Positions 1-12,387 of a stretch of DNA of 27,658 nt are shown one piece after another; the first letter of the stretch is position 1; each line of letters starts with the position of its first letter. A program made the translations under genes and the position numbers. The stretch is from a virus: positions 1 through 27,658 of IMG/VR virus record IMGVR_UViG_3300037234_000920; one strand, given 5' to 3'. A model generated the notes under the pieces. It was given only the letters and a program-made list of their open reading frames with translations, was not told the DNA's origin and searched no databases.

Positions 1-92
1 GTCTTAAGGAAAAAGGTTTTGAACAATTTGCCCCCCCCTACCCTTAATAATTTTATCAGATAAATAATTTGTTCCTCAAAATTGGCACGGTG

Positions 93-317
93 TTAATCTC
101 TCTTCTTTTTTGTAGTCTTGACCTTGTAACCAACCTTGCGCCCAACCTTTTTCGATTGTATCACCGCGTCTTCTGGAATCAAATATGTTCCGTGTCCTGC
201 TGATGCTATCGCCTTGTATTCGAGGTTGTCATGTAGGCAAGCGTATCGAACTTGGCCCACAGTAAGCCCGTGAAGTTCAGCGTATGATTCCGTTGTATGG
301 TATTTAATGTCGCTCAT
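93..317 (-). CDS. Small HTH DNA-binding protein (excisionase/MerR-like)
   Basis: Protein of 74 residues. The central part (ESYAELHGLTVGQVRYAC, then an aromatic/proline segment LIPEDAV) looks like the short winged helix-turn-helix of excisionase or MerR-type proteins, and the C-terminus is very basic (KVKTTKKKRD). An ATG further upstream exists, but it lies inside the -35 box of a near-consensus promoter (TTGACA, 18 bp, TATACT). The ATG at 317 follows the -10 by only 6 bases, so it is the start chosen here, and the mRNA may be leaderless. It is divergent from the HNH gene. Seen: fold-like pattern and promoter. Inferred: a phage regulator or excisionase. The exact role is open. Confidence 0.6.
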   Translation of the reverse strand: MSDIKYHTTESYAELHGLTVGQVRYACLHDNLEYKAIASAGHGTYLIPEDAVIQSKKVGRKVGYKVKTTKKKRD

Positions 318-323
318 TCTATA

Positions 324-353
324 AGTATAGTTAATGTAAACACTCATTGTCAA
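324..353 (-). promoter_or_regulatory. Near-consensus sigma70-type promoter for the small HTH gene
   Basis: On the minus strand, TTGACA (353-348) and TATACT (329-324) are separated by 18 bp. The expected start point falls on or next to the ATG at 317, which suggests a leaderless transcript. The -35 region overlaps a 13-bp palindrome and a weaker plus-strand promoter. Confidence 0.65.
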
Positions 354-377
354 CATTGAATGTTAATGCTGTATATT
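347..377 (+). promoter_or_regulatory. Divergent promoter and 13-bp operator-like palindrome
   Basis: AACATTGAATGTT (352-364) is a perfect palindrome around a central G. On the plus strand, TTGTCA (347-352) and TGTATA (370-375), 17 bp apart, could drive the HNH gene. The palindrome sits between these boxes and beside the opposing -35, so one bound repressor could affect both directions. The promoter boxes are moderate matches only. Confidence 0.4.
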
Positions 378-439
378 ACTACTGAAGCGGAACACAACAA
401 ACGAACAGAGAACAACCACAAGAACAAGGACAGAACACG

Positions 440-820
440 ATGGCACGAAGAGCAAAAACAGTTTGTCGAAAATTGGGATGTAATACGTTGGTTGAAACTC
501 CTGGTCATTGCGAAGATCATCAGGATAAATCGGTGCAAGAAAAAGGATTTGAGAAACAGGATTATAATAAATCAATGGAAACGAAAAGGTTTTACTCTTC
601 TTATCGATGGACTAAAACGAGCCTGAGACACCGCGCGAAAGTTCCATTGTGTGAGGAGTGTCAAGAGAGCGGGATTGTGCAGATAGCAGAGATGGTTCAC
701 CACGAACCACCTCTTGAAGAACTACTGAAGAGAGGACTGAACGCCCACGATGAACAGTATCTGCACTCATTGTGCAACAACTGTCACCTTGGACACCTCA
801 GAGATAAGAAAAACCATTAG
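440..820 (+). CDS. HNH endonuclease (phage type)
   Basis: Protein of 126 residues with the phage HNH zinc-finger nuclease layout. CEEC (C71, C74) is followed by VHHEPP (H87, H88, E89), the ββα-metal first half. HSLCNNCHLGH (C112, C115, H116, H119) supplies the second cysteine pair and the metal-binding histidines. An extra cysteine/histidine cluster near the N-terminus (C9, C14, C24, H27) may form a second zinc knuckle. AAGGA lies 9 bases before the ATG. HNH proteins of this size often sit beside terminase genes in HK97-like phages and help terminase cut DNA at packaging. The terminase is not in this window, so that role is inferred. It is the only plus-strand gene among the left-end phage genes and converges on the 844 gene. 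Confidence 0.85.
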   Translation: MARRAKTVCRKLGCNTLVETPGHCEDHQDKSVQEKGFEKQDYNKSMETKRFYSSYRWTKTSLRHRAKVPLCEECQESGIVQIAEMVHHEPPLEELLKRGLNAHDEQYLHSLCNNCHLGHLRDKKNH

Positions 821-843
821 GGATCAAATGGCTTATTAATTCC

Positions 844-1398
844 TTAAAATGGAGATCTATAGTCAATGATAAACGAGGTAATGAAAGATGTTTCAGATAT
901 AGCGTCAACAACGAATGCTTCTAAATCTTGTTGTTGTTTATAAAAATTAATAGCACCTTCCCAAGTATCGTCTACAGTTGATAAAACAACGAGTTCCGCA
1001 ATCGTAAATACGTCTTTTTGCACCGGTGAACCTGGTATTGTCCAGTTATCTATTCTTACAAGTTCATTCCCTGTATTGTTTCGCGGTCTCACAATATCAG
1101 GAATACCAGTTCCAAGATAAATAGTAAGCGCACCGGTGCTTGTTGATATAAACGGCAAATTGTTTGCGCTAAATGAGAGCGTTACACTTTGCCCCGTTCG
1201 GTCAAATATCGCTTGCTGTGAAAGTGTGCTGCAGTCAACTCCGTTGGTTCTAATTATCGCATCAGAAACCGCAGCCTGAACGTCAAGGTTTTCTTTGAGC
1301 CAAAGCGTGTTTCCTTCAATACGATTAAAATCATCAGCGTCGACCCCCTCTTGAACGGCAGGGCTCCAATCTGTTTTTGGTGTTTCCCATTCTGACAT
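844..1398 (-). CDS. Small virion-associated protein, tail/fibre-like
   Basis: Protein of 184 residues. The N-terminus reads MSEWETPKTDWSPAV followed by a DADDFNRIEGN motif. The pattern W..P.TDW, then DFNRIE.N, is common at the N-termini of small phage tail, baseplate or fibre-associated proteins. The rest is beta-rich with Thr/Ser and no clear catalytic motif. Of two adjacent ATGs, the second (1398) is chosen because GGAGG lies 6 bases upstream; its A is shared with the TGA of the preceding gene (TGATG), a sign of translational coupling. It is far from the late operon, beside the replication-type gene, which is unusual for a virion protein unless the genome is circularly permuted around this end. 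Confidence 0.5.
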   Translation of the reverse strand: MSEWETPKTDWSPAVQEGVDADDFNRIEGNTLWLKENLDVQAAVSDAIIRTNGVDCSTLSQQAIFDRTGQSVTLSFSANNLPFISTSTGALTIYLGTGIPDIVRPRNNTGNELVRIDNWTIPGSPVQKDVFTIAELVVLSTVDDTWEGAINFYKQQQDLEAFVVDAISETSFITSFIIDYRSPF

Positions 1399-1619
1399 CA
1401 TTCACCTCCACGAAGAATGTTTATTTGTTTATCTGTTAATCCAATTTCAACCAATGCAGGAGTGGTCCACTTTTCGGCGAGAAAAACACTGGTTGTTTCC
1501 CACCAAGAAGCGCGCGTTTCTGAAGCTTCAAGAGCCTGCTCAAAAGCGGTGATTCCGCTTCTTAAACTTTCAGCGTGTAATTGATTATCTGATTTTTGTA
1601 ATGGTTCTTCTTTCTCCAA
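1398..1619 (-). CDS. Hypothetical protein, 73 residues, TTG start
   Basis: A short acidic protein that I do not recognise. It is helical in character, with QALEASETRASWWETTSVF in the middle and LTDKQINILRGGE at the end. The best start is a TTG preceded by AAGGA about 9 bases upstream. Its TGA overlaps the ATG of the virion-like gene, so the two are probably translated together. Position and size would fit a chaperone or partner of that protein, but no motif supports this. Confidence 0.55.
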   Translation of the reverse strand: MEKEEPLQKSDNQLHAESLRSGITAFEQALEASETRASWWETTSVFLAEKWTTPALVEIGLTDKQINILRGGE

Positions 1620-1640
1620 TTTTACCGATCCTTTTTGATA

Positions 1641-2168
1641 TTACCCGATGTTTTCAACAAAACATCTATCCACATAGAACTCTGTTTGATTGCATCGATA
1701 CGCCCAGAACGCTCTAAAAATAGTCTCTTTCGTAACGGTATCGAACAGGTTTTCATATTTTTCACAGAAATGAACCGCGATGTCATGTCGATTTGCGGAA
1801 TGTTTCCCTTCTCCCTCACTCATCCACATTGAGAACTTTTCAAGTGAATACTGTAAATCGTGACTCATCCAAACATCAGGGAACAAATCACGGAACGAAT
1901 ACCACCAGAAATGAGACCCTTCTGATTTTGATCTGAACACCTGAAGCCATAGGTGAATCGAGTTGTCTGTCTCTTCCAGAAAGAACTCAGTCACCGTTCG
2001 TTCTGCTCTCTGCTCATCAATTTGCCACACTAAAAGTATTTCCTCGAAATCATCGAACAGGCGGTTGCACCAATATTCATCGTGCGGTTTCACAATTGCC
2101 GTTGCTCTACCGAGATCTATCATCCCGATTGTGAAGTAGTCCACCGATAGAACAAGTCGGTTGTTCAT
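1641..2168 (-). CDS. Hypothetical protein coupled to the replication-type gene
   Basis: Protein of 175 residues, unusually rich in aromatics (many W, F and Y) and acidic residues; no family recognised. The segments GSHFWWYSFRDLFPDVW and FRAFWAYRCNQTEFYVDRC are typical of its composition. Its ATG overlaps the stop of the upstream winged-helix gene (TAATG), so both are in one early transcript. There is no signal peptide or clear membrane helix. It could be an accessory replication or host-takeover protein, but only its position suggests this. Confidence 0.65.
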   Translation of the reverse strand: MNNRLVLSVDYFTIGMIDLGRATAIVKPHDEYWCNRLFDDFEEILLVWQIDEQRAERTVTEFFLEETDNSIHLWLQVFRSKSEGSHFWWYSFRDLFPDVWMSHDLQYSLEKFSMWMSEGEGKHSANRHDIAVHFCEKYENLFDTVTKETIFRAFWAYRCNQTEFYVDRCFVENIG

Positions 2169-3022
2169 TATTTTGAATCTCTTTCCGCACCACTACCTGC
2201 TTTGATCATATCTCTAAAAGCTGCTTTTTTTTCTTCGTCGTCAGATTCCCATATTCTATCACCGAGTTCATCTGTTTCTTTCTTCTGGATAATTGCGGTT
2301 TTTTCAATTCGTTTCGTTTGAGTTGTCTTTGATTGAACATCTTTTGGATCTGGTTCTTTGTAGTTTTCAAGTCGTGATATAAGAACTCCAATTCCATCAA
2401 CAGTTTTATTTTCGATATCTTCTTTCGTCTTTAAGTAAATTGTTTTTACTGTTTGAGAAGATAGTTTTTTAGCAATAGAAACCAATCGTGAAGGTTCTTT
2501 ACAAAGGTTTAATGTTTTAGATAAGAAAAGAAAAACCTCCTCCTCCTCATTTGAAAGAGTCCCCGTTTTTTGGGGTAAGGGGGAGGACTCTCTTTGTTGA
2601 CTCTCTTTAAAATGACTATCTTCATGTACGATAGGTGAAAGTTGTGTGTGGGGAGGCGTAACTTTCACTTGTTGGCGAGATGTAGGTTTTACGTGTTCCG
2701 ATGCGTAATTTTTACTTGTACCGAGAATAGTAGACTCTAAGAAGTGGTATGAGTCATTTTCGTTTCTCATCCTGTTTCCTCTTTCAACCTCAATCAATTT
2801 GGTATTAACTAATAGTTTCAATGCTGCTTGAACGGAACTTAGTGAGATCCCAAGCTCATCGGCAAGTGTTTGCTGCATCGGATGACAAGAGCCGTTTTCA
2901 CCGCAATACCTCATCAATCGGCCATAAATAAGTTTTGAATTTGGAGTGAGTGGTTTATGCTTGCAAATTCCTTCAGGTATATAAATACCGTTGTATCTCT
3001 TGTATGGGTTAAAACGTGCCAT
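2168..3022 (-). CDS. Winged-helix phage replication initiator-like protein
   Basis: Protein of 284 residues. Residues about 10-95 form a helix-turn-helix domain of the type found in phage O-like or DnaD-type initiators: TPNSKLIYGRLMRYCGENG, then TLADELGISLSSVQAALKLL as the recognition part, then a wing with LIEVERGNRMRNEN. A Ser/Pro/Gln/Glu-rich linker follows, then a mostly helical C-terminal part. An in-frame ATG 9 codons upstream lacks a ribosome site; AAGGGG just before 3022 supports the later start. The family normally binds the phage origin and recruits helicase loader or helicase. Here that is inferred, and no iteron-like origin was seen inside the gene. A promoter with its -35 inside a palindrome lies upstream (3172-3201). 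Confidence 0.7.
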   Translation of the reverse strand: MARFNPYKRYNGIYIPEGICKHKPLTPNSKLIYGRLMRYCGENGSCHPMQQTLADELGISLSSVQAALKLLVNTKLIEVERGNRMRNENDSYHFLESTILGTSKNYASEHVKPTSRQQVKVTPPHTQLSPIVHEDSHFKESQQRESSPLPQKTGTLSNEEEEVFLFLSKTLNLCKEPSRLVSIAKKLSSQTVKTIYLKTKEDIENKTVDGIGVLISRLENYKEPDPKDVQSKTTQTKRIEKTAIIQKKETDELGDRIWESDDEEKKAAFRDMIKAGSGAERDSK

Positions 3023-3171
3023 ATTTCCCCTTAAAACAAAAATAGCCATTGAACGGTACTCACTTTAGCAGTCTTAATACCGGCAACCACATAAGCCGAT
3101 TTTAAGAAGTGAGCCGAACAACGGCATTGATTTTATTGTGGTTATGTTTTCGATGTGCTAACACCGTATAT

Positions 3172-3201
3172 AGTATACATTTTCCCACTACATAAAACCA
3201 A
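3172..3201 (-). promoter_or_regulatory. Candidate early promoter for the replication-type gene
   Basis: On the minus strand, TTGGTT (3201-3196), an 18-bp spacer and TATACT (3177-3172) form a plausible sigma70 promoter. It would give a leader of about 140 bases before 3022. The -35 lies inside the palindrome at 3197-3231, so a bound repressor would block it. Promoter boxes only; no experimental support. Confidence 0.5.
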
Positions 3202-3231
3202 ATAATATTGTATTGAATGATATTATTTGGT
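3197..3231. promoter_or_regulatory. 12-bp perfect inverted repeat, operator-like
   Basis: ACCAAATAATAT (3197-3208) is repeated inverted at 3220-3231 with an 11-base spacer. It overlaps the -35 of the leftward early promoter and lies upstream of the rightward cassette region. That is the expected place for a repressor controlling both. It has no T-run and is very AT-rich, so a terminator is less likely. Confidence 0.5.
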
Positions 3232-3356
3232 GAGAGGAAACACCAAAAACAAAGAAAAGTAAAATAAATGTGGCATTCTGAAAACCACAATCGTATATTT
3301 AGGGTGTTCGAGAGGTGACTGTCTCGGTATTGAAATGATCGTTTAAAAAAAATTAC

Positions 3357-3468: not shown

Positions 3469-3549
3469 ATGAGTTGGAATAAGATCGTTAAAGCCTACCG
3501 CAAGCCCACCGCCCCGAAACCACTTCCAGCGTGGTCAAATGTCAAATAA
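3469..3549 (+). CDS. 26-residue leader peptide ORF
   Basis: A very short ORF starting MSWNKIVKAYRKP and ending PLPAWSNVK. AGGAG lies 9 bases before the ATG, a better ribosome site than most genes in this region have. Its stop overlaps the start of the next ORF by 11 bases, which fits translational coupling. Codons 5-9 contain GATCGTTAAAGC, perfectly complementary to a segment of the structured RNA just upstream, so its translation may be regulated by that RNA. No function is recognisable; it is Pro/Lys-rich. Confidence 0.5.
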   Translation: MSWNKIVKAYRKPTAPKPLPAWSNVK

Positions 3550-3748
3550 TAAAATAAAACGCCCCTGTGTTCATTGTGGCGAAGGTGTCCGAGTTGAAAC
3601 AGAACGTAAACGTTCGAAAGTTTGGGACACTTCCAAGGAAACCAAAGACAACACAATCGGGTATTCAATGGAACTGAACGTGTTTTTTCTGTCAGAATGT
3701 TGTAACACAAAGTCATTCCTTCACGTGGAAATTGCAGAGAAAAAATAA
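3539..3748 (+). CDS. Small zinc-finger-like protein
   Basis: Protein of 69 residues with a CVHC knuckle near the N-terminus (PCVHCGEG) and a second cysteine pair later (SECCNTKSF), likely a small zinc-binding fold. It overlaps the 26-residue ORF by 11 bases and has only a weak ribosome site, so it is probably translated by coupling. It is followed within 10 bases by the parS palindrome and then the first attC-like repeat, so it behaves as the first gene of the cassette region. Its specific role is unknown. Confidence 0.55.
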   Translation: MSNNKIKRPCVHCGEGVRVETERKRSKVWDTSKETKDNTIGYSMELNVFFLSECCNTKSFLHVEIAEKK

Positions 3749-3756
3749 TATAGAGA

Positions 3757-3772
3757 TGTTTCACGTGAAACA
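3757..3772. promoter_or_regulatory. parS: parS centromere-like site (exact consensus)
   Basis: The 16 bases TGTTTCACGTGAAACA match exactly the widely conserved bacterial chromosomal parS bound by ParB, and the palindrome extends to 20 bp (3755-3774). No parA or parB gene is in this window, so the site would use host ParB or a phage ParB encoded elsewhere. It abuts the left end of the first attC-like repeat. A weaker site centred on CACGTG at 3722-3727 lies exactly 40 bp to the left. Confidence 0.8.
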
Positions 3773-3828
3773 TCAACAAACTGGTGTAGTGCTGAGGCAC
3801 GAAGACACCTACAACCAACTGGTTATGA
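3772..3828 (+). repeat. attC-like site 1
   Basis: Left core ATCAAC (3772-3777, degenerate) and right core GTTATGA (3822-3828). The inner arms TGGTGTAG (3782-3789) and CTACAACCA (3809-3817) pair with one unpaired base on the right arm. Confidence 0.65.
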
Positions 3829-3850
3829 TACCAGTGGAAATGAGTCAAAG

Positions 3851-4117
3851 ATGGGAATAGGAGCTTATCACGGTGGGGGTGAAGATTGTGAATCACCTTG
3901 TACAGATTGTACTAAAGTATACCCAACTAAGTTTAGTTTTACAAACAATATAAAGAGAATAAAGACACTGCCTAAAAACCACAATGGATCTTTTAAAGTG
4001 TGTCGAGAGTCTGGAGTAATTGACCTCATTAGAGTTGATTTGTATAAAGAATCAAGTGGCGAATCTTTTCATATAGCATACTGGGAAGCAGAAAAAACAT
4101 TGTTTATAGAACTATAA
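3851..4117 (+). CDS. Cassette ORF, hypothetical, cysteine-containing
   Basis: Protein of 88 residues. It has an N-terminal cysteine cluster (CESPCTDC) and a basic middle part (NNIKRIKTLPKN), then a predicted beta-rich C-terminal half. No family recognised. It lies between attC-like sites 1 and 2; the stop codon is immediately followed by the left core of site 2, the tight packing typical of integron cassettes. The ribosome site is weak (GGAA 11 bases upstream). A mini-ORF starting at the ATG in the site-1 core overlaps this start. Confidence 0.6.
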   Translation: MGIGAYHGGGEDCESPCTDCTKVYPTKFSFTNNIKRIKTLPKNHNGSFKVCRESGVIDLIRVDLYKESSGESFHIAYWEAEKTLFIEL

Positions 4118-4178
4118 TAACGCACCAGTGGGGTGCAACGAGGAACGAGGCAGTCATCCTCAACGGGATTGGTTATGC
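4115..4178 (+). repeat. attC-like site 2
   Basis: Left core TAATAAC (4115-4121) overlaps the stop of the preceding gene; right core GTTATGC (4172-4178). The inner arms pair imperfectly (CCAGTGGGGTG with CATCCTCAACGGG). Confidence 0.65.
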
Positions 4179-4197
4179 CCTTACAGAAAGAACGAAA

Positions 4198-4590
4198 ATG
4201 ATTTGTCCAAAATGTAAATCAACAAACATCAGAACTGAACGAAGCCCAATTGGTGAAGTAAAGTGCAATGATTGTGGTTTTGTACTTAAAGAGAGGGGTA
4301 GTAAAGAAAAACTATTACCTATTACTGAGCAAGATTACCCGATGCCCCCAGTGAAAGAGCCAATTAAAAACACGGTTATTTCGACACTATCAATCTCCGT
4401 TGGGTTTTCTGCAGAAAGTGCAACAACAGCAATACGTGAGATAGGTTTAATAGTTGGAAAGTATAGTATTTCAGACGAGGATGCAAAACAGATTTCAACA
4501 ATCATACAAGACACTTTGGTTGTAGTTCGAGAGCCTTTGAGTAGGGTTGAAAAGATTAAAAATAAACTGATGCCTAATTATCAGCAATAA
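4198..4590 (+). CDS. Cassette ORF with N-terminal zinc ribbon
   Basis: Protein of 130 residues. Residues 3-26 form a textbook zinc ribbon: CPKCKSTNI, then CNDCGFVL (C-x2-C, 16 residues, C-x2-C), as seen in TFIIB-like and many small phage or bacterial proteins. The remainder (about 45-130) is a soluble, helical region with no recognised domain. The start overlaps a mini-ORF stop as ATGA. It lies between attC-like sites 2 and 3. Nucleic-acid or protein binding is likely from the ribbon; nothing more specific can be said. Confidence 0.75.
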   Translation: MICPKCKSTNIRTERSPIGEVKCNDCGFVLKERGSKEKLLPITEQDYPMPPVKEPIKNTVISTLSISVGFSAESATTAIREIGLIVGKYSISDEDAKQISTIIQDTLVVVREPLSRVEKIKNKLMPNYQQ

Positions 4591-4652
4591 CCGTTACGTG
4601 GTGAGCAAACGTAGCGGAGCGAAGAGCAGACACACCAACGTGTTTGTTATAA
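4585..4652 (+). repeat. attC-like site 3
   Basis: Left core CAATAAC (4585-4591) and right core GTTATAA (4646-4652). Inner arms ACGTGGTG (4596-4603) and CACCAACGT (4633-4641) pair with one extrahelical base, the classic attC asymmetry. It is one of two sites lacking ATG in the right core. Confidence 0.7.
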
Positions 4653-4672
4653 CCTTTTCAGAAAGAACGAAG

Positions 4673-5002
4673 ATGGAATGTGGTATGGATATAAATACAA
4701 ATCCCGATTCAACGAAAGTTGCTTTGTGTTTTGAAAATGAAATTTATGTTGGTGAAGATCTTGATTCACTTATTGAAGAAGTTCGAGAAGCTACAGGATA
4801 CGACATTGAAACTATTGTAAGTATGCTACAAAGAGCAGTTCAATCTTTTGAAACTCTTGGAGAGGCTGCTTCTACACTAGAAAAGAATATGATTGAGTTT
4901 AAAAGACTTGTGAGCGAAGGGGAGGTTTATTTTCCAAATACTCATTTGGAGACAAATCATTTCTATGATCCAAAGCGAAGTAAGAAACGAAAACAGTGGT
5001 AA
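4673..5002 (+). CDS. Cassette ORF, hypothetical, acidic helical
   Basis: Protein of 109 residues. An in-frame ATG at 4598 lies inside the attC-like repeat, so the ATG at 4673, after AAAGAACGAAG, is preferred. The sequence is acidic and helical in the middle (DSLIEEVREATGYDIETIV, then LGEAASTLEKN) with a strongly basic tail (DPKRSKKRKQW). No family recognised. It is the cassette between sites 3 and 4. The basic tail on an acidic body could mark a nucleic-acid contact, but this is speculation. Confidence 0.65.
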   Translation: MECGMDINTNPDSTKVALCFENEIYVGEDLDSLIEEVREATGYDIETIVSMLQRAVQSFETLGEAASTLEKNMIEFKRLVSEGEVYFPNTHLETNHFYDPKRSKKRKQW

Positions 5003-5011
5003 ATTAATCAC

Positions 5012-5077
5012 ATATAATGCCAGCGTCGTTTGCAAACGACCGCAGGGAGAGCAGTCAAATGAACGCACTGGTTATGA
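5012..5077 (+). repeat. attC-like site 4
   Basis: Left core ATATAAT (5012-5018) and right core GTTATGA (5071-5077). Inner arms CGTCGTTTG (5024-5032) and CAAATGAACG (5056-5065) pair with an extra base on the right. Confidence 0.65.
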
Positions 5078-5098
5078 TGAACTTAAATAGGAGCACGA

Positions 5099-5476
5099 AT
5101 GACAAGAATTGAAAAAATAGAATTGCGGTTTGAAAAAGCATTTAAGGGTTATTCATATTCAAAAGATACTTGGAGATCTGAAGTTAGATTGGCTCTTATG
5201 AATATTGCTTGCGGTTACTATAATTGCCACTCAATTGTAGATGTTTTGGTGAGAGCAAAATTGATAACACCAAAGACTAGAAGAATGAATTCAGATGGTC
5301 AACTGTGCCTGTATTACTTCTTTGACATATTAGAGCAAGAAAAGAACGCTGAAATTGAAAAGTGTTACTCTGAAATCAAAGACAAAGAAGTAACTATAAA
5401 AAAATACTGGGATCGAAGCGAGAGATACCAAGACAAGTACATTAAACTTCTTAATGATATTGAAAACACTATATAA
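5099..5476 (+). CDS. Cassette ORF, hypothetical, C-terminal coiled coil
   Basis: Protein of 125 residues with AGGAG 8 bases before the ATG. The first two thirds are a mixed globular region (RLALMNIACGYYNCHSIVDV). The last 45 residues are highly charged and probably coiled coil (FFDILEQEKNAEIEKCYSE onward), ending LLNDIENTI. No family recognised. It fills the cassette between sites 4 and 5; the stop TAA lies inside the left core of site 5 (ATATAAC). Confidence 0.7.
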   Translation: MTRIEKIELRFEKAFKGYSYSKDTWRSEVRLALMNIACGYYNCHSIVDVLVRAKLITPKTRRMNSDGQLCLYYFFDILEQEKNAEIEKCYSEIKDKEVTIKKYWDRSERYQDKYIKLLNDIENTI

Positions 5477-5533
5477 CAGCTACGTGGTTTGCCGTAACGG
5501 AGTGAAGGACATAACCAACGTGAACGGTTATGT
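5471..5533 (+). repeat. attC-like site 5
   Basis: Left core ATATAAC (5471-5477) and right core GTTATGT (5527-5533). Inner arms ACGTGGTTTG (5482-5491) and CATAACCAACGT (5510-5521) pair with unpaired bases on the right arm. Confidence 0.7.
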
Positions 5534-5559
5534 ATAAACTTGATAGAGGAGTATTGCAA

Positions 5560-5772
5560 ATGAGTAATCCATACTATAAACTACAAAAATGTTCTTGTGG
5601 CGAATTCTATAACGCTTGGAGAGGGAATGTGTTTTTTCTTGATTTTGAAGTTTGTCCAAAATGTGGAACGAGCAAAAAAAAATTTGAGCCTGTTGTAGTG
5701 CGTTGGGTGAATGCGCCTGTTTGGTACAATCCACTAAAATGGTTTGATGGTTATTACGAAGAATCTAAATAA
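5560..5772 (+). CDS. Cassette ORF, small zinc-ribbon protein
   Basis: Protein of 70 residues. CSC (KCSCGEFY) and CPKC (VCPKCGTSK) form a probable zinc ribbon at residues 11-37, followed by a tryptophan-rich tail (VRWVNAPVWYNPLKWFDGYY). The upstream ATG at 5530 is in frame but lies in the attC core; AGAGGAG 8 bases before 5560 favours the later start. The reading is open from 5530, so a 10-residue extension is possible. No family recognised beyond the ribbon. Confidence 0.7.
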   Translation: MSNPYYKLQKCSCGEFYNAWRGNVFFLDFEVCPKCGTSKKKFEPVVVRWVNAPVWYNPLKWFDGYYEESK

Positions 5773-5819
5773 TGGTTTGGTGGTGTGCGGAACGCCATCA
5801 CCAACCAATTTGGTTATGA
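5768..5819 (+). repeat. attC-like site 6
   Basis: Short variant. Left core AATAAT region (5768-5773) overlaps the preceding stop; right core GTTATGA (5813-5819). Arms TTTGGTGGTG and CATCACCAACCAA pair with extra bases on the right. Confidence 0.65.
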
Positions 5820-5846
5820 AACAAACTTTAAAGAAAAGAGAATGTT

Positions 5847-6128
5847 ATGAGTGAAGAAATATCAACCTGTTGTTCTTGTGGATATTCGTGGAAAACTGGA
5901 ACTGATGGTTCACACAGTTGTTCTTCTGAATTACAAAAGACAAAAAAGAAAGCTATTGATTTTATAGTTGAGTGGGGTGGTGTTGATGGTGCACATCATA
6001 AAGATTGGACACTTGACCAAGTTGTAAGAATACTTGCAGGTGAGCAATATGACGAGATTGTTGCAGAAGCTAAAAAAGGTGAAGATGGAGACGAAACATA
6101 TTCTTGGGAATGTGGAATAGCTCCGTAG
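5847..6128 (+). CDS. Cassette ORF, Cys-cluster protein with conserved GIAP tail
   Basis: Protein of 93 residues. The N-terminus has a compact cysteine cluster (CCSCGYSW, then HSC) suggesting zinc binding. The C-terminal half, with VDGAHHKDWTLDQVVRILAG and ending ETYSWECGIAP, matches from memory a widespread small domain of unknown function. That domain has a G..G.HHK.W..DQ.VR.L.G core and a terminal W..GIAP, and it occurs often in phage and accessory genes. The function of the domain is not known to me. The start has AAAAGAGAATGTT upstream, shared almost exactly with the next cassette. It lies between sites 6 and 7. Confidence 0.75.
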   Translation: MSEEISTCCSCGYSWKTGTDGSHSCSSELQKTKKKAIDFIVEWGGVDGAHHKDWTLDQVVRILAGEQYDEIVAEAKKGEDGDETYSWECGIAP

Positions 6129-6139
6129 TAAATCAGAAC

Positions 6140-6195
6140 ATATAACGGTTTGTTGGTGGGTGCGTAGCATCATCACCAAACCAAAGTGGTTATGA
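6140..6195 (+). repeat. attC-like site 7
   Basis: Left core ATATAAC (6140-6146) and right core GTTATGA (6189-6195). Inner arms around TTGGTG and CACCAAACC pair imperfectly. Confidence 0.65.
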
Positions 6196-6221
6196 ATAAA
6201 TTTAAATGAAAAGAGAATGTT

Positions 6222-6650
6222 ATGAAATATCAATACGGAGTTAATCTTTGGGGTGGTTTTTTCAATGATGAGCACTACGAGATACACAAAAAAGAATCGG
6301 GCAATTTTGTTTTTGATTCAAAAGAAGACCGAGAAACCTTTATTTCAGACTTGAAAGCAATTGAAAAACGGCTGAATGCTAAAGTATTAATGACTAGCGA
6401 GTATGAGGGGTATCTATGCCACGAACCTATAATTCTTCATCGGATATCTAAATTTGATGGTGTCGAAGTACATACAACCAGAGAACTTTTTAGATGTGAA
6501 CCTTATTCAAGTTGCGAGTATATGCTTGAATACAAATGGTATCTCGGCTTTAATGATTACCCATTTGGCGAGGAATTTGATTATGAAAACAATGAAGTAG
6601 AATCCGTATCTTGGATTGAAGGACGATTCGAGTATAAATCAGACATATAA
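6222..6650 (+). CDS. Cassette ORF, hypothetical
   Basis: Protein of 142 residues, acidic and rich in aromatics. It contains SKEDRETFISDLKAIEKRL, a helix of a kind common in small accessory proteins, and a C-terminal acidic stretch (FGEEFDYENNEVESVSW). No catalytic motif and no family name can be given. The ATG is embedded in a second GTTATG, and the 17 bases before and across it are identical to those at the start of the previous cassette gene, so these two cassettes share their 5' ends. It lies between sites 7 and 8. Confidence 0.7.
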   Translation: MKYQYGVNLWGGFFNDEHYEIHKKESGNFVFDSKEDRETFISDLKAIEKRLNAKVLMTSEYEGYLCHEPIILHRISKFDGVEVHTTRELFRCEPYSSCEYMLEYKWYLGFNDYPFGEEFDYENNEVESVSWIEGRFEYKSDI

Positions 6651-6706
6651 CCACGGCGTGTGGTGCGGTGACGAAGGAGCGGTCATCCACAACGCGCTTG
6701 TTATGA
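6645..6706 (+). repeat. attC-like site 8
   Basis: Left core ATATAAC (6645-6651) and right core GTTATGA (6700-6706). Inner arms CGTGTGG (6657-6663) and CCACAACG (6687-6694) pair with one extrahelical base. Confidence 0.75.
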
Positions 6707-6728
6707 CAAACTTTAGAAAGGAACACAG

Positions 6729-7073
6729 ATGATAAAATTTGAAGAGTTGTTTAAAAATATTATGAGCAAAGTTGTAGCACGCCCTTTTGATGAAACTCGA
6801 ACAAAAGACGGCAATTGGAACTACATTCATCAAACAGATGTATCAAATGCTATGGTAGAAGTTAGGCGGGTATTTACTGAAATTGAGAATGCACAGAATG
6901 AGAGAACTGACGAAGAAACAATTGTGCAAACACTTCGTCGGGTACAACCTGCTGAACAGCGGGCTTTATTTCTTGAAGAATTAATGATTGAAATTTACAA
7001 CGAGAGTGATTCTGAGAAAATTTCAGATATTGCGGGTTTTGCAATACAGTCAAATGTATATATGAAATCTTAA
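6729..7073 (+). CDS. Cassette ORF, hypothetical, helical
   Basis: Protein of 114 residues, predicted mostly helical (VSNAMVEVRRVFTEIENAQ, then LRRVQPAEQRALFLEELMI). GAAAGG lies 7 bases before the ATG, and the start overlaps a mini-ORF stop (ATGA). No family recognised. The leader between the site-8 core and the start (ATGACAAACTTTA, then AAAGGAACA) is nearly identical to that of the next cassette. It lies between sites 8 and 9. Confidence 0.7.
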   Translation: MIKFEELFKNIMSKVVARPFDETRTKDGNWNYIHQTDVSNAMVEVRRVFTEIENAQNERTDEETIVQTLRRVQPAEQRALFLEELMIEIYNESDSEKISDIAGFAIQSNVYMKS

Positions 7074-7131
7074 TAACGTCTGCGTCGGGAGCAGCAGCTT
7101 TATCGCTGTCTGCTGGACGCGCATGTTATGA
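7071..7131 (+). repeat. attC-like site 9
   Basis: Left core TAATAAC (7071-7077) overlaps the preceding stop; right core GTTATGA (7125-7131). GCGTC pairs with GACGC, and an inner hairpin CAGC/GCTG closes the loop. Confidence 0.7.
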
Positions 7132-7153
7132 CAAACTTTAAAAAGGAACAATA

Positions 7154-7555
7154 ATGAGAACTTTACATTTGAATTTAAAGAAAAAATGGTTTGATCTAAT
7201 TTCATCTGGAGAAAAAACAGAAGAGTATAGAGTGATAAAAAAGTATTGGGTTGATAGACTTTTAGTGTTAACTGATGAAAAGTTTCCTGCTGACGAATTC
7301 CCTATGGATGAAATGTGTTTTGACTTGAAGAACCCAGGGAAAAGACATAGAGGTGTTGAAGATCTTTTTAATTACTTCGGTGTTGAGTCAACAATGCATT
7401 ATGATACTATTACTTTCAGAAACGGATTCAAGAAAAATGCACCAGAAGTGGTTGTTGAATTCAAAGGGTTTGAATTCAGAGGTGGAATTGAAAAATGGGG
7501 AGCGGTTCAAGGTGAATCTTACTTTGTTTTGCTAATTGGAAAAATTATTAAATAA
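7154..7555 (+). CDS. Cassette ORF, ASCH-domain protein
   Basis: Protein of 133 residues recognised as an ASCH-type domain. The N-terminal signature is MRTLHLNLKKKWFDLISSGE followed by KTEEYR. The later DTITFRNGFKKNAPEVVVEF and the terminal YFVLLIGKII also fit family members I know. ASCH/PUA-like proteins bind RNA, and one subgroup (YqfB) hydrolyses N4-acetylcytidine; the activity of this one is not shown by the sequence. AAGGAA lies before the ATG, and a mini-ORF stop overlaps it (TAATG). It is the best-identified gene in the array; ASCH proteins also occur in phages and integron cassettes. It lies between sites 9 and 10. Confidence 0.85.
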   Translation: MRTLHLNLKKKWFDLISSGEKTEEYRVIKKYWVDRLLVLTDEKFPADEFPMDEMCFDLKNPGKRHRGVEDLFNYFGVESTMHYDTITFRNGFKKNAPEVVVEFKGFEFRGGIEKWGAVQGESYFVLLIGKIIK

Positions 7556-7613
7556 CCACTGAAATGGTGGGCGGTGAGGAACGAACAGTCCTTACCAACC
7601 TGTTAGGTTATGA
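7550..7613 (+). repeat. attC-like site 10
   Basis: Left core AAATAAC (7550-7556) and right core GTTATGA (7607-7613). The arms GGTGAGG and CCTTACCAACC pair less regularly than at other sites. Confidence 0.6.
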
Positions 7614-7634
7614 CTCAAACAGAAAGAATTATAA

Positions 7635-7907
7635 ATGAGTAAAAAGATTTCTTTTCAATTACAAAAAAACATTGACCTACTCAAACCGCTAATTGGACAG
7701 GTGTGTGGTGAGTACCAAAACAAGAACTTCCACATAAGTCAAGTTAAGATGTTTGTGTATACCTTGATAGATAGTAAACAGCTTAAACTTATAAACTATT
7801 GCAAATCTTTAAGAGATTTTGAGTTTCTTAGGAAATACTTAGAGGGATATTCAGATATCAAGAAGAGTTGGCGGTTCAAAGGAGATTTAGTTTTCCCAAG
7901 TGAATAA
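7635..7907 (+). CDS. Cassette ORF, hypothetical, basic
   Basis: Protein of 90 residues, basic and probably helical (QLQKNIDLLKPLIGQVCGEY, then LRDFEFLRKYLEGYSDIKK). No family recognised. The start ATG at 7635 follows AGAAAGAATTATAA, a weak ribosome site, and a mini-ORF from the site-10 core overlaps it out of frame. It lies between sites 10 and 11. Confidence 0.65.
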   Translation: MSKKISFQLQKNIDLLKPLIGQVCGEYQNKNFHISQVKMFVYTLIDSKQLKLINYCKSLRDFEFLRKYLEGYSDIKKSWRFKGDLVFPSE

Positions 7908-7920
7908 ACAGTTAATCGCT

Positions 7921-7972
7921 ATATAACACCTGCGTGTGGGGCTGAAAGTCATCCACAACGCGCAGGTTATGA
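7921..7972 (+). repeat. attC-like site 11
   Basis: Left core ATATAAC (7921-7927) and right core GTTATGA (7966-7972). Inner arms GCGTGTGG (7932-7939) and CCACAACGC pair with one extrahelical base. Confidence 0.75.
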
Positions 7973-7993
7973 CTACACAAAAGGAATATTGAA

Positions 7994-8323
7994 ATGAATG
8001 ATTCAAATCTAATATCAGAAGATCTCAAAAAAGACATTGAGCGCGAAGCATCGGCAAAGAGTGGTATAAAATCACATCAGAAAAACTTAGATGGACACGA
8101 GCAGTACAGAGGAAAAGAAATAATTATTGTCGTAAATGAAAGCGAGTTATTCCAAAAGCTGAAACAGGGAATGTATTTCGACAAAGTAAATGTCCAACCG
8201 TCGTATTTTACGGGAAAAACAGTTGATAGAATAATTGACATACTAAATGAGCCAGACTTGAAACAGGTCGCAAGGTATGAAGAAGAGTTAGCTGAATTGA
8301 AAAAGAAATATCAAATCCTATAA
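7994..8323 (+). CDS. Cassette ORF, hypothetical, charged
   Basis: Protein of 109 residues, strongly charged, ending in a likely coiled coil (YEEELAELKKKYQIL). The middle contains KEIIIVVNESELFQKLKQGM and FTGKTVDRIIDILNEPDLKQ. No family recognised. AAAGGAA lies 7 bases before the ATG. It is the last gene of the first array; its stop merges with the left core of site 12. Confidence 0.7.
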   Translation: MNDSNLISEDLKKDIEREASAKSGIKSHQKNLDGHEQYRGKEIIIVVNESELFQKLKQGMYFDKVNVQPSYFTGKTVDRIIDILNEPDLKQVARYEEELAELKKKYQIL

Positions 8324-8372
8324 CAAGGGCGGTGGTGTGCCCCACGGGCCATCACCCACCTGCTTGTTATTA
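8318..8372 (+). repeat. attC-like site 12, end of first array
   Basis: Left core CTATAAC (8318-8324) and right core GTTATTA (8366-8372), without the usual ATG. Arms GGCGGTGGTG and CATCACCCACC pair. No plus-strand ORF follows; the integrase gene ends 41 bases further on, in the opposite direction. Confidence 0.7.
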
Positions 8373-8413: not shown

Positions 8414-9592
8414 CTACAAATCTTTTGCTTTTTCTCGAAGAACGGTGTGGAAAGTGTTCATTGAAATACCGTTTTCTCGCATCTTTTCGATCATCCCTTC
8501 AACATCAGAACGAATGATCTCCTGTTGGTCCTGATTGTAACCACTCATTTCAGCAACTTCTTCAGCAGCAACATCATTGTACCAGTTCCACATTGAATCA
8601 GTAACGTGTCCCATTTGAGCCTTGATCACTTCTTTATCCCACCCCTCGCGGCGTTTCCTGATTGCGTATGAGTGCCGAATGTCGTGGATATTGAACTCTG
8701 AAAACTCGGTTCTTTTAACAACGTCGCGGAACATGTCATACACGGTGTTATAACTAAGAGCATTTTCAAGCGTAACACCGAACACGTGATCTTTGTTTTT
8801 CGCCCCTTTGCGGTTGTTTATTTCCTTGAGTGACACCAAGAGATCCAGCGCCTCTTTTTCAACACCTATCGTTCGCGTTTTGCCCTCTTTCACACGATCA
8901 GCGTCAAGAGTTATCACTCCTGCTTTTAAATCAACCTCGCACCACTTGAGATTGCGAACTTCCCCGATTCTCATACCCGTGTGCCATAATACCGTGATCA
9001 CCCCTTTTGCCCACCATCGTTGATCTTTGAACAAGTCGTTGAACTTGTTGAAATCTTCCTGAGAAAGTGATTTGTTCCGTTTGTTCTTCTTCTTGAACTG
9101 TTTGGTGAACCGGATCTCTTTGATTGGGTTAATCGCGATTATCTCCCGTTCAATGGCATAATTGAACACTCTCTTGAAATAGGTGAGATGTTTTTCAATC
9201 GTTGAAATCTCATATTTGTGGCCCTTTTGAGAAACGATTTCACCATCAAAGAACTTTTCGAAATAGATTCTCACTTCAGAAGTGGATATTTTTGAAAGAA
9301 TGTGATCACCAAACTCTCTTATGAGATTGTTCATATATGAAACGTTACCAGATGCTTTCCCTTTTGCTAAATGAGAATCGCGATACTGAACGGCAATTTG
9401 TTCGAATGTAAGAGTGGAAAACCGTTTTTGTATCAATGCGGTTTTGTTTTTATAATCAGCTTTCCGCGAATTGATATACTCTTCAGCGTCCTTTTTACGG
9501 GTGAACGGTGTTTTCCGCTCTCTCTTGGCTCCTGGTGACGGGTAGAAATCAACCCGCCACGTTCCATCTTCATTTTTCTTTGGAACAGACAT
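8414..9592 (-). CDS. int: Phage tyrosine integrase
   Basis: Protein of 392 residues. N-terminal residues 1-50 resemble an arm-binding AP2-like domain (DGTWRVDFY, then FTRKKDAEEYI). A core-binding helical domain follows, then the catalytic domain. Visible catalytic residues are R208 (HTGMRIGE), a likely beta-hairpin lysine at 235 or 238, H303 and R306 (HDIRH), H329 (MGH) and the nucleophile Y338 (NWY). Length and the arm-binding domain mark a lambda/P2-like phage integrase. The extra segment typical of integron IntI proteins is absent. The start overlaps the previous stop (TAATG). It should integrate the phage by attP x attB; no attP could be recognised. It lies between the two cassette arrays. 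Confidence 0.93.
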   Translation of the reverse strand: MSVPKKNEDGTWRVDFYPSPGAKRERKTPFTRKKDAEEYINSRKADYKNKTALIQKRFSTLTFEQIAVQYRDSHLAKGKASGNVSYMNNLIREFGDHILSKISTSEVRIYFEKFFDGEIVSQKGHKYEISTIEKHLTYFKRVFNYAIEREIIAINPIKEIRFTKQFKKKNKRNKSLSQEDFNKFNDLFKDQRWWAKGVITVLWHTGMRIGEVRNLKWCEVDLKAGVITLDADRVKEGKTRTIGVEKEALDLLVSLKEINNRKGAKNKDHVFGVTLENALSYNTVYDMFRDVVKRTEFSEFNIHDIRHSYAIRKRREGWDKEVIKAQMGHVTDSMWNWYNDVAAEEVAEMSGYNQDQQEIIRSDVEGMIEKMRENGISMNTFHTVLREKAKDL

Positions 9593-9909
9593 TATCTGTC
9601 ACTTCCTTCCTTCTGAACACCGAAAAGAGGATCACCGATCACCTCGAACCAACTGCAAGCCGTTGCAATCTGAGAGTAGAACTCTTTCCCCAGTATTGGA
9701 ACCTCAACGTGAGGCGCGGGAAACTGTACCAATCGAGTCACTTGAGCGCGAAACGAACAGACATCTTGTGTCTTACACGATTGACAAGAGATCACCACCG
9801 GTGAACGAACCTTCTTCACCTGTTCAGAAAGTGCCTGTCTAAGAAGTGACACCGGATCACCGCCGAGTTTTCGGATCTCTTCAGATATTTGTTGTAGTTC
9901 TGGATTCAT
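9592..9909 (-). CDS. Hypothetical protein with a cysteine knuckle, coupled to int
   Basis: Protein of 105 residues. CQSCKTQDVC near the middle suggests a metal-binding knuckle. The rest (LQQISEEIRKLGGDPVSLLR at the start, TACSWFEVIGDPLFGV later) matches no family I know. The ATG at 9909 has GGGGA 5 bases upstream and is preferred over one 4 codons earlier. Its stop overlaps the integrase ATG, so the two are translated together. It may be an integration accessory or superinfection protein; only context suggests it. Confidence 0.7.
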   Translation of the reverse strand: MNPELQQISEEIRKLGGDPVSLLRQALSEQVKKVRSPVVISCQSCKTQDVCSFRAQVTRLVQFPAPHVEVPILGKEFYSQIATACSWFEVIGDPLFGVQKEGSDR

Positions 9910-10105
9910 AATCGTCCCCATTTTTTACCAGTAAATAATAATAATCCTTCATATTCCCACACACCACCGATTCGTTTGGTTTAAGCGAAGGAAGAAGAAT
10001 TTGTTTTCGGCTATAAATTCTAAAAATAACATGGTGTTTACTCCATCGATCCCAAACATTAGAATTTGATTTTGTACGTTTTTTTTGGAATACCTTACGA
10101 CTCAT
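9881..10105 (-). CDS. Small basic hypothetical protein
   Basis: Protein of 74 residues, basic at the N-terminus (SRKVFQKKRTKSNSNVW) and tyrosine-rich near the end (MKDYYYLLVKNGDDYES). The ATG overlaps the stop of the upstream gene by 11 bases, and its own end overlaps the next gene by about 29 bases. The overlaps support a coupled operon, but the ORF is short and unrecognised, so it is less certain than its neighbours. Confidence 0.5.
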   Translation of the reverse strand: MSRKVFQKKRTKSNSNVWDRWSKHHVIFRIYSRKQILLPSLKPNESVVCGNMKDYYYLLVKNGDDYESRTTTNI

Positions 10106-11141: not shown

Positions 11142-11273
11142 ATGTATGAAAGTGAGGTTCTTATGAATCAAAATTGTAGATGGATGAGCTATGAACACAC
11201 ACCGAAATACGATGTTCTCCGCGTTGTGAATAATCTTTGTGATAAGGTGCTGAAACTTATTGGGTGGTGTTAG
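11142..11273 (+). CDS. Short ORF, 43 residues
   Basis: Reads MYESEVLMNQNCRWMSYEHT and on to KLIGWC. A start at 11142 (AAAGGGTG upstream) or at the in-frame ATG 11163 (GTGAGG 5 bases upstream, 36 residues) is equally plausible. It precedes attC-like site 13 and follows a possible degenerate core (ATATAAC at 11077-11083), so it may be the first cassette of the second array. No function recognised. Confidence 0.4.
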   Translation: MYESEVLMNQNCRWMSYEHTPKYDVLRVVNNLCDKVLKLIGWC

Positions 11274-11294
11274 AACGGATTGAGTCGCAAACGA

Positions 11295-11358
11295 AGATAA
11301 CGCTTGAATCGTAAGCAAACGAGGTACGAGTGCAGTCTTATGAATGCACTGGTTATGA
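11295..11358 (+). repeat. attC-like site 13
   Basis: Left core AGATAAC (11295-11301) and right core GTTATGA (11352-11358). The right arm ATGCACTGG resembles that of site 4 (ACGCACTGG). Inner arms around CGTAAG and CTTATG pair. Confidence 0.55.
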
Positions 11359-11378
11359 CTTAAACAAAGGTAGATAAG

Positions 11379-11774
11379 ATGGGATATGGTGGAGATAGAA
11401 GAAGTAGTGTTGTAACTGCTTTGATTAATGGTGAAGTTGTTAATTATGATATGTGTTCTGAAAACCGACACGCTTATTCTGATGGAGGATGGCAAGAGCA
11501 CTATTATTTAGGTAAAGGTAAAATTCACACTATTGACGGGGTAAAGCAATCTAGATTTAACAACCACCATTTCTTTAAGTTTGGGAAGAAGTCCAAAGAA
11601 ATTGAGTCAATAACCGCTTTGCCTAAAAGATATAATTGCTCTGAGCATTATTCACATATTTACAAAAAAGATGTTGCAACTATGAGTGAAAACAAACACG
11701 GTAAATTTGTAAAAGTAGAAGATTATAACGCATTGCAAAAAGAGCTTGAAGAGATGCGAGAAAATCACATATAA
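11379..11774 (+). CDS. Cassette ORF, hypothetical
   Basis: Protein of 131 residues with AAAGGT 7 bases before the ATG. The N-terminal part contains GGDRRSSVVTALINGEVVNY and a histidine/tyrosine-rich middle (WQEHYYLGKGKIH); the C-terminus is a short likely coiled coil (YNALQKELEEMRENH). No family recognised. Its stop TAA lies in the left core of site 14. It is the central gene of the second cassette stretch. Confidence 0.65.
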   Translation: MGYGGDRRSSVVTALINGEVVNYDMCSENRHAYSDGGWQEHYYLGKGKIHTIDGVKQSRFNNHHFFKFGKKSKEIESITALPKRYNCSEHYSHIYKKDVATMSENKHGKFVKVEDYNALQKELEEMRENHI

Positions 11775-11829
11775 CAAACCGCGTCGTGTGCGGAACGGAG
11801 TGGAGACACCCGAACGCATACGGTTATGA
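11769..11829 (+). repeat. attC-like site 14
   Basis: Left core ATATAAC (11769-11775) and right core GTTATGA (11823-11829). Inner arms GCGTCGTGTG and CACCCGAACGC pair with an extra base on the right. Confidence 0.7.
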
Positions 11830-11858
11830 TAAATAAAACTAAAAGAGAAGAGAGTAAA

Positions 11859-12260
11859 ATGATTCAAAACGTAAAAAAGTTAATCGTTATAGTTGCCGTT
11901 TTTGTTAGCGTTGGATGTGCTGGTGAAGGGTTTGTTTTTGCAGAGGGTGGATATACCAACTATAAAGAGATTTCTCACACTCAGAAGTGCGTTTTTCTGA
12001 AAGATATGACACTCCGAAGAGGTGGTGTTGAAATTGTCGCTATGGAAGGTGATACTATTGATATTCCCGATGTAACAATACGATATGGATGTTATGATGA
12101 AAACGATCTCATTTTTGGGTATGCTCAAATAGACACGGGATCTGTTGATACTATCGACACTCTCACGCAACACTATCAGTTTTCAGAATTCTTTTCGGCA
12201 GATAGCACGTGGATCACGGTGTATCATTCAGGTGTAAGCACTGTTTCTGTTGAATGGTAA
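11859..12260 (+). CDS. Cassette ORF, exported or lipoprotein-like protein
   Basis: Protein of 133 residues. The N-terminus is a clear signal peptide: basic start (MIQNVKK), hydrophobic core (LIVIVAVFVSVG) and a cysteine at residue 19 (VGCAGEG), a loose lipobox. A signal peptidase I site (FVFA/EGG) is an alternative. The mature part is beta-rich and Thr/Asp/Tyr-rich, not recognised. GAGAG lies just before the ATG at 11859; an in-frame ATG at 11826 in the attC core would mask the signal peptide and is less likely. It is the only clearly exported cassette protein here, so surface change of a lysogen is a fair but unproven idea. Confidence 0.7.
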   Translation: MIQNVKKLIVIVAVFVSVGCAGEGFVFAEGGYTNYKEISHTQKCVFLKDMTLRRGGVEIVAMEGDTIDIPDVTIRYGCYDENDLIFGYAQIDTGSVDTIDTLTQHYQFSEFFSADSTWITVYHSGVSTVSVEW

Positions 12261-12281
12261 CAGTTTGTTATGTGACAAAAC

Positions 12282-12348
12282 AAAAAAGCCGCTACCAGGG
12301 GAACCAGCAGCGGCTTTTCGTCTATTAACAATCGAAGGAAATGTCGAC
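12282..12348 (-). ncRNA. Candidate small RNA of about 67 bases
   Basis: A near-consensus minus-strand promoter (12384-12355) would start RNA near 12348. The only downstream element before the terminator at 12318-12282 is about 30 bases with no ORF. The product would be a short RNA ending in a stable hairpin and U-tract. Promoter and terminator are visible; expression and target are unknown. Confidence 0.45.
12284..12318. terminator. Bidirectional intrinsic terminator
   Basis: AAAAGCCGCT (12284-12293) pairs perfectly with 12309-12318. Leftward transcripts get six Ts after the stem, rightward ones four. It closes the second cassette stretch (plus strand) and ends anything read leftward from the promoter at 12355-12384. 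Confidence 0.85.
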
Positions 12349-12354
12349 TGTGAT

Positions 12355-12384
12355 AATATAGGTTCTCACAATCGATAGTGTCAA
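12355..12384 (-). promoter_or_regulatory. Near-consensus leftward promoter after the late operon
   Basis: TTGACA (12384-12379) and TATATT (12360-12355) are 18 bp apart on the minus strand. The -35 begins just beyond the end of the late operon. Only the short stretch to the terminator lies downstream. Confidence 0.6.
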
Positions 12385-12387
12385 CAG

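Follow-up and report, generated by a model that had tools for sequence, protein, structure and literature searches.

An attC-like cassette array in a tailed phage genome, with genes opposite in polarity to their sites

The window analysed here is a linear IMG/VR virus record of 27,658 bases (IMGVR_UViG_3300037234_000920), which may be a fragment. It is part of the genome of a tailed, siphovirus-like phage, with a tape measure protein, a major tail protein, a head-tail adaptor and a replication initiation protein encoded on the minus strand, and it carries a cluster of attC sites lacking an integron integrase (CALIN). The attC-like sites form two groups, 12 at 3770-8372 (4.6 kb) and two at 11295-11829. 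One plus-strand open reading frame (ORF) lies between each two neighbouring sites of the main group, which gives 11 genes, and the second group adds two (13 in total). The original prediction, made from the sequence alone, described twelve sites of 52-68 bp at 3772-8372 with one gene between each pair; all of them are present, with bounds refined to 3770-8372, and the second group had been missed.

Sites were located with two covariance models. The model R2 was built from 24 sites of five other phages (L215, L217, L221, L223 and L225), with the window left out of training. The model R1 comes from 19 bacterial attC sites, and its positive controls, the arrays already known in the phages TJE1, M16-3 and p16, were recovered on the expected strand. 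Within the window R2 gives exactly 14 matches, which all lie on the minus strand, with E-values from 4e-10 to 2e-4. The next match, at E = 0.12, is the other strand of a known site, and otherwise nothing falls below E 0.1. The strand given below is that of attC, and the recombinogenic strand would be the plus strand.

3770-3828, minus strand: attC-like site S1, R2 35.1 bits, with the extra base on the plus-strand right arm
4115-4178, minus strand: attC-like site S2, R2 54.6 bits, E 4e-10
4585-4652, minus strand: attC-like site S3, R2 34.9 bits
5012-5077, minus strand: attC-like site S4, R2 44.1 bits
5471-5533, minus strand: attC-like site S5, common to phage L217 (90% over 79 nucleotides including the leader), R2 53.7 bits
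5767-5819, minus strand: attC-like site S6, R2 47.4 bits
6140-6195, minus strand: attC-like site S7, R2 31.2 bits
6645-6706, minus strand: attC-like site S8, R2 43.3 bits
7071-7131, minus strand: attC-like site S9, R2 34.7 bits; the sole site accepted by the bacterial model (R1 21.8 bits, E 0.0012, minus strand)
7550-7613, minus strand: attC-like site S10, R2 43.2 bits
7921-7972, minus strand: attC-like site S11, R2 51.4 bits
8318-8372, minus strand: attC-like site S12, right end of the array and most diverged, R2 29.1 bits
11295-11358, minus strand: attC-like site S13, second group, R2 49.2 bits, E 6e-9; R1 11.1 bits on the minus strand
11769-11829, minus strand: attC-like site S14, second group, R2 40.6 bits

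These 14 sites belong to one family of folded attC-type sites that is common to at least six phages. Across 44 sites of the family, 90.5% of the pair cells are paired, against 78.4±1.0% in shuffled sets (0 of 500) and 26-52% when slid, and 57 cells have changed on both sides of a pair, against 19±3 in shuffled sets (0 of 500). Classic attC cores are RYYYAAC and GTTRRRY. The window sites read on the minus strand as ordinary attC (TCATAAC...GTTG...GAC...GTTATAT), and on this strand they have the imperfect hairpin, the paired R and L boxes, the unpaired spacers and the extrahelical base on L''. The left and right cores that had been described are present, with conservation and complementarity limited to the inner 5 bp (ATAAC/GTTAT). 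The cores ATATAAC and GTTATGA deviate from the strict consensus at one or two positions, and identical cores are present in attC sites linked to an integrase; GTTATGA, which had been taken as a deviation, is a normal and common core in the intI-linked attC array of Shewanella. Searching with a DNA pattern taken from a single window site (CAACGCGCNNGTTATGAC) produced chance matches only.

The genes of the array are as follows, with lengths in amino acids (aa) and RBS standing for ribosome-binding site.

3851-4117, plus strand: cassette gene 1, 88 aa ORF, no Pfam or PHROG match
4198-4590, plus strand: cassette gene 2, 130 aa, N-terminal TFIIB-like zinc ribbon (PF08271, E 1.6e-6, 28.0 bits, just below the 29-bit cutoff)
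4673-5002, plus strand: cassette gene 3, 109 aa ORF with an RBS-like AGAAAGAACGAAG leader
5099-5476, plus strand: cassette gene 4, 125 aa, phrog_18088, 56% over 63 aa to L225:3289-3888 in an array-bearing phage
5560-5772, plus strand: cassette gene 5, about 70 aa, Cys-rich, phrog_13409
5847-6128, plus strand: cassette gene 6, 93 aa, from a family widespread on plasmids and phages
6222-6650, plus strand: cassette gene 7, 142 aa ORF, TAA stop exactly at the crossover point
6729-7073, plus strand: cassette gene 8, 114 aa ORF
7154-7555, plus strand: cassette gene 9, 133 aa, ASCH-like (phrog_625, E 3e-20; 37% to Polaribacter phage Leef_1)
7635-7907, plus strand: cassette gene 10, 90 aa ORF
7994-8323, plus strand: cassette gene 11, 109 aa ORF, TAA stop at the crossover point
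11379-11774, plus strand: cassette gene 12, 131 aa ORF between S13 and S14
11826-12260, plus strand: cassette gene 13, 144 aa, lipoprotein-like N-terminus, ending at GGTAAC, a possible remnant core (12258-12271)

The merging of stop codons with the left core, as first noticed, is confirmed, and 6 of the 11 cassette ORFs stop exactly at the crossover point between AA and C. Homologs of cassette gene 6 occur also in the antisense attC arrays of L021 and L059, while most of its plasmid and genome homologs lie outside attC arrays. L021 (positions 1-3331), from the Thiobacillaceae metagenome-assembled genome G003, is a small contig with phage-like genes and an antisense attC array, and G003 has two intI genes. 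Among the cassette proteins, no known defence function was recognised beyond one marginal E2 match. The array is most likely an exchangeable set of accessory genes, with a predicted role in phage-host and phage-phage competition.

In real attC sites the extra unpaired base sits on the R''-L'' arm. When sites are read along the array, the extra base lies on this arm in 21 of 21 integrase-adjacent bacterial sites (called 'L') and likewise in the true sites of Shewanella and Vibrio phage integrons. When the window sites are read along the genes, it lies on the other arm ('R'), and therefore they are attC sites of the minus strand. The extra base on the right arm that the original prediction had described is thus real and is the attC extrahelical base, which reveals the polarity of the sites, an orientation that had escaped notice. 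All 14 sites are on the strand opposite to the cassette genes.

Polarity was called for whole cassettes with R1 matches as anchors and the longest ORF between neighbouring sites, a crude rule that leaves about a third of the viral intervals, mostly from GC-rich contigs, uncallable. The window has 9 antisense, 0 sense and 2 unclear intervals, none of the callable ones having the usual order of gene and then attC, and its site family as a whole has 28 antisense cassettes and 0 sense ones. The intI-linked bacterial arrays have 70 sense and 2 antisense among 72 callable cassettes, and a second bacterial phylum is sense in 4 of 4 intervals, these controls being mainly one class plus the four intervals of that phylum. 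Viral contigs have 79 antisense cassettes versus 24 sense (68 versus 23 after deduplication; Fisher p 5e-23), or 25 versus 1 when counted by contig, and the AT-rich viral subset (GC below 0.45) has 24 versus 2. Antisense polarity recurs across unrelated site families of widely different GC, and reversed gene/attC polarity is a general phage feature. Complementarity between R'' and the R' of the previous site, which defines cassettes in the Shewanella array, was also considered and gives no decision on the polarity of the window, because only the inner 5 bp pair.

The unit that is exchanged confirms this polarity without any structure model. Contigs L163 and L207 have a common cassette of 82% identity, in which the homology begins at the core of the attC that precedes the gene and ends at the core behind the gene; the sequence outside is unrelated, and the breakpoints are at both CTAAC cores. 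In the pair L151/L189 the homology ends at the R' core. The window itself shares S5 and its leader with L217 (attC and leader only), and the similarity stops leftward at the core. Among similar family sites, 111 pairs have the better-conserved flank on the R'' side, as against 19 pairs that have it on the R' side. From these breakpoints and flanks it follows that the phage cassette is built by an attC, then an RBS leader and then the ORF, as shown in the pair L163/L207. Homologous gene pairs, in which the similarity of the 5' and 3' attC was compared, were few and strongly diverged.

Further array phages came from two scans of the viral collection with DNA patterns. The site family of the window occurs with different cassette sets in five independent phage contigs (L215, L217, L221, L223 and L225), and the search among related phages that had been proposed thus found different cassettes in at least five other phages. 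In L217, a six-site array of the window type (11244-13344) starts exactly at the stop codon of a phage SSB gene. DNA methyltransferases are found among the cassettes of L221 and L225, and in L221 (61-2223) two such genes are separate cassettes of one phage array. In L225 (208-8053), the phage whose integrase most resembles that of the window, window-type sites flank the integrase on both sides, in opposite orientation relative to it, and the cassettes form another set. A relation suggested between window 9592-9921 and L225 8456-8767 could not be confirmed. For the whole phage, neither megablast nor patterns of its recombinase and tail proteins gave a close relative; one distant relative of its tape measure protein was found.

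The neighbours of the array in the window are the following.

2168-3049, minus strand: replication gene, a phage gene left of the array
3539-3748, plus strand: ORF adjoining the left end of the array, on the strand of the cassette genes
8414-9592, minus strand: phage-type tyrosine recombinase (Int), not IntI; phrog_1 E 3e-57; TIGR02249 35.9 bits against a cutoff of 265; its 3' end abuts the array

The cassette genes had been described as facing opposite to the phage genes on both sides, which holds for the replication gene and Int and fails for the left-adjacent ORF. Int is the sole tyrosine recombinase of the record, in agreement with the original prediction, and the integron-integrase model TIGR02249, which gives 394 bits to a true IntI, leaves it far below the cutoff. 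Just past the second group, at 12284-12318, an inverted repeat that is strong and GC-rich has T-rich sequence after it and resembles a terminator.

The preferred interpretation, to which a probability of about 0.82 is given, is that the window holds a phage-borne CALIN, with two clusters (12 and 2) of integron attC sites on which IntI would act in trans. The attC-like structure with its covariation and the core breakpoints in related arrays agree with the integron-type array first proposed. Several observations weigh against it. S9 is the single window site that the bacterial attC model accepts by itself (E 0.0012), with two more at E about 1; the outer two bases of the cores are not complementary; and the single-strand folding energies are moderate (z -0.7 to -3.4). 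No intI gene was found in the record above the TIGR02249 cutoff, and IntI is encoded by only 3 of the 38 array-bearing viral records. The 299 genomes from the phylum of G003 that were searched with R2 gave no match, a weak test in which few candidates were scored per genome, and no pair of strains was found that differs in the presence of one of the window's own cassettes.

Genes for IntI are nevertheless found beside some phage arrays, and two array phages encode a true intI next to their phage integrase. L190, from G148, is a clear phage, with terminase, portal and tape measure, and its intI is directly before its own phage integrase. In G148, the sites are on the strand opposite intI, 3 of 3 callable cassettes are antisense, and cassettes, phage int and intI share one reading direction. 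The IntI-encoding L192, from G150, has mostly sense cassettes, and in G149 intI is before a large serine integrase. The arrangement with a large serine integrase immediately after intI is seen at L231 (10945-13951, IMGVR_UViG_3300042196_000135), where attC sites lie to the left of intI, and that of a true integron integrase directly before the phage's own integrase, beside an antisense array, is seen at L229 (4475-6642, IMGVR_UViG_3300029258_001000). The cassette exchange described above joins L207, which encodes IntI, to L163, which does not. A helper IntI from the host or from another phage is plausible for the window phage.

An unlikely alternative is that the array was copied as a block from a chromosomal integron of the host and that the reversed polarity is a trait of the host lineage and not of phages. 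It draws on the bacterial controls, which come mainly from one class, and on L021, where antisense cassettes occur in a genome with two intI genes; the recurrence of antisense polarity in phages whose site families are unrelated and whose GC differs widely argues against it, as do the integrase-adjacent arrays examined, which are sense. The reverse integron of Treponema was considered as a source of the polarity and rejected, because intI is reversed there and not the relation of gene to attC (PMC3607928, PMC4909258).

It is less probable still, and quite improbable, that the phage's own tyrosine recombinase (8414-9592) acts on the sites as a private cassette system unrelated to IntI. The array does abut the 3' end of this gene, the recombinase of L225 that sits between window-type sites is a relative (about 40% identity), and further arrays adjoin integrases (L163, L229). 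Against this, the window-type arrays of L217, L221, L215 and L223 adjoin SSB, methyltransferase, terminase or portal genes, and the examined stretches of these four have no relative of the window Int; moreover, the anatomy of the sites agrees with that of sites used by IntI, and exchange connects L207 with a contig without IntI. That ordinary small phage genes merely have these sites as terminators or as 5' regulatory elements can hardly be upheld, for although every site is a hairpin just ahead of an RBS and the leaders are alike between cassettes, no T-run follows the hairpins, the structure fits attC down to the extrahelical base, the cores are placed so that more than half of the main-group ORFs end exactly at the crossover point, gene sets vary between phages with a common site family, and the L163/L207 breakpoints at the cores reject a purely regulatory role.

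For the phage-borne CALIN, a mechanism can be proposed from these features. IntI, provided in trans from the host or from a co-resident phage that encodes it, would cut the folded plus strand, which is the attC bottom strand and here the coding strand, between AA and C and between G and TT. It would excise and insert cassettes, so that accessory genes may be swapped between phages and between phage and host. The cassette would be laid out as C-attC-GTTATGA-RBS leader-ORF-TAA, and thus each gene would bring its own 5' leader, and read-through from a phage promoter would be enough for it, with no need of the integron promoter Pc. Where phage operons are directed towards the intI/int end, as in G148, the reversed polarity would suit them.

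A wider proposal, held tentatively and at somewhat less than even odds, is that phages hold their own pool of attC-first (antisense) cassettes, largely separate from the bacterial pool. Some temperate phages would maintain it with their own intI beside the phage integrase, while CALIN phages would borrow IntI from phage or host; the attC hairpin and RBS would serve as the 5' leader of the gene, and polarity may have been selected for operon expression of any insert and for a recombinogenic strand on the coding strand.

Integron theory assumes a promoterless cassette gene in the sense of attC that is read from Pc. A large viral class of cassettes with the opposite polarity points to an alternative way of building and expressing cassettes, with an own leader and no need of Pc, and bears on how cassettes first arise. 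It also suggests phages as active partners in cassette exchange, beyond passive carriers of captured integron pieces. Polarity, together with which attC travels with the gene, offers a simple test for phage-type or bacterial-type cassettes in any metagenome.

Among known systems, CALINs in phage genomes were described in 2023 in TJE1, P12002L, PH101 and MW202573 (Qi et al. 2023, PMC9892861), and 5 of 6 phage attC sites tested were recombined into attI1 by IntI1 (PMC9892861). Like the window, they are attC clusters without intI whose cassettes are small genes of no assigned function, and they also carry DNA methyltransferases as cassettes (PMC9892861). They are short, with 3 sites in TJE1 versus 12 and 2 in the window, and the polarity of gene and attC is not discussed there (PMC9892861); in the present analysis TJE1 reads sense, whereas the window is all antisense. 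The new part is therefore the polarity of attC opposite to the genes, since phage-borne CALINs themselves are already known (PMC9892861), and no description of antisense phage cassettes was found in the literature searched, with a coverage that leaves out preprints and most subscription journals.

The sedentary chromosomal arrays of the Shewanella, Vibrio and Xanthomonas types share with the window the R''-L''-L'-R' hairpins, the extrahelical base, one gene per site, the stop codon merged with the core and the RBS just past the core; in the window no intI was found, the genes are against the attC polarity and the cores are reduced to ATAAC/GTTAT. The complete integrons of temperate phages (Va_90-11-286_p16 and Shewanella M16-3) are likewise integron parts inside a prophage, but these parts are pieces of a host integron that include intI, and their cassettes are sense, unlike those of the window. 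The Treponema reverse integron, too, has integron parts in an unusual orientation to one another; in it the reversal is that of intI with respect to attI, and the usual gene-then-attC cassettes are kept (PMC3607928, PMC4909258), whereas in the window, which has no intI, it is the relation between gene and attC that is reversed.

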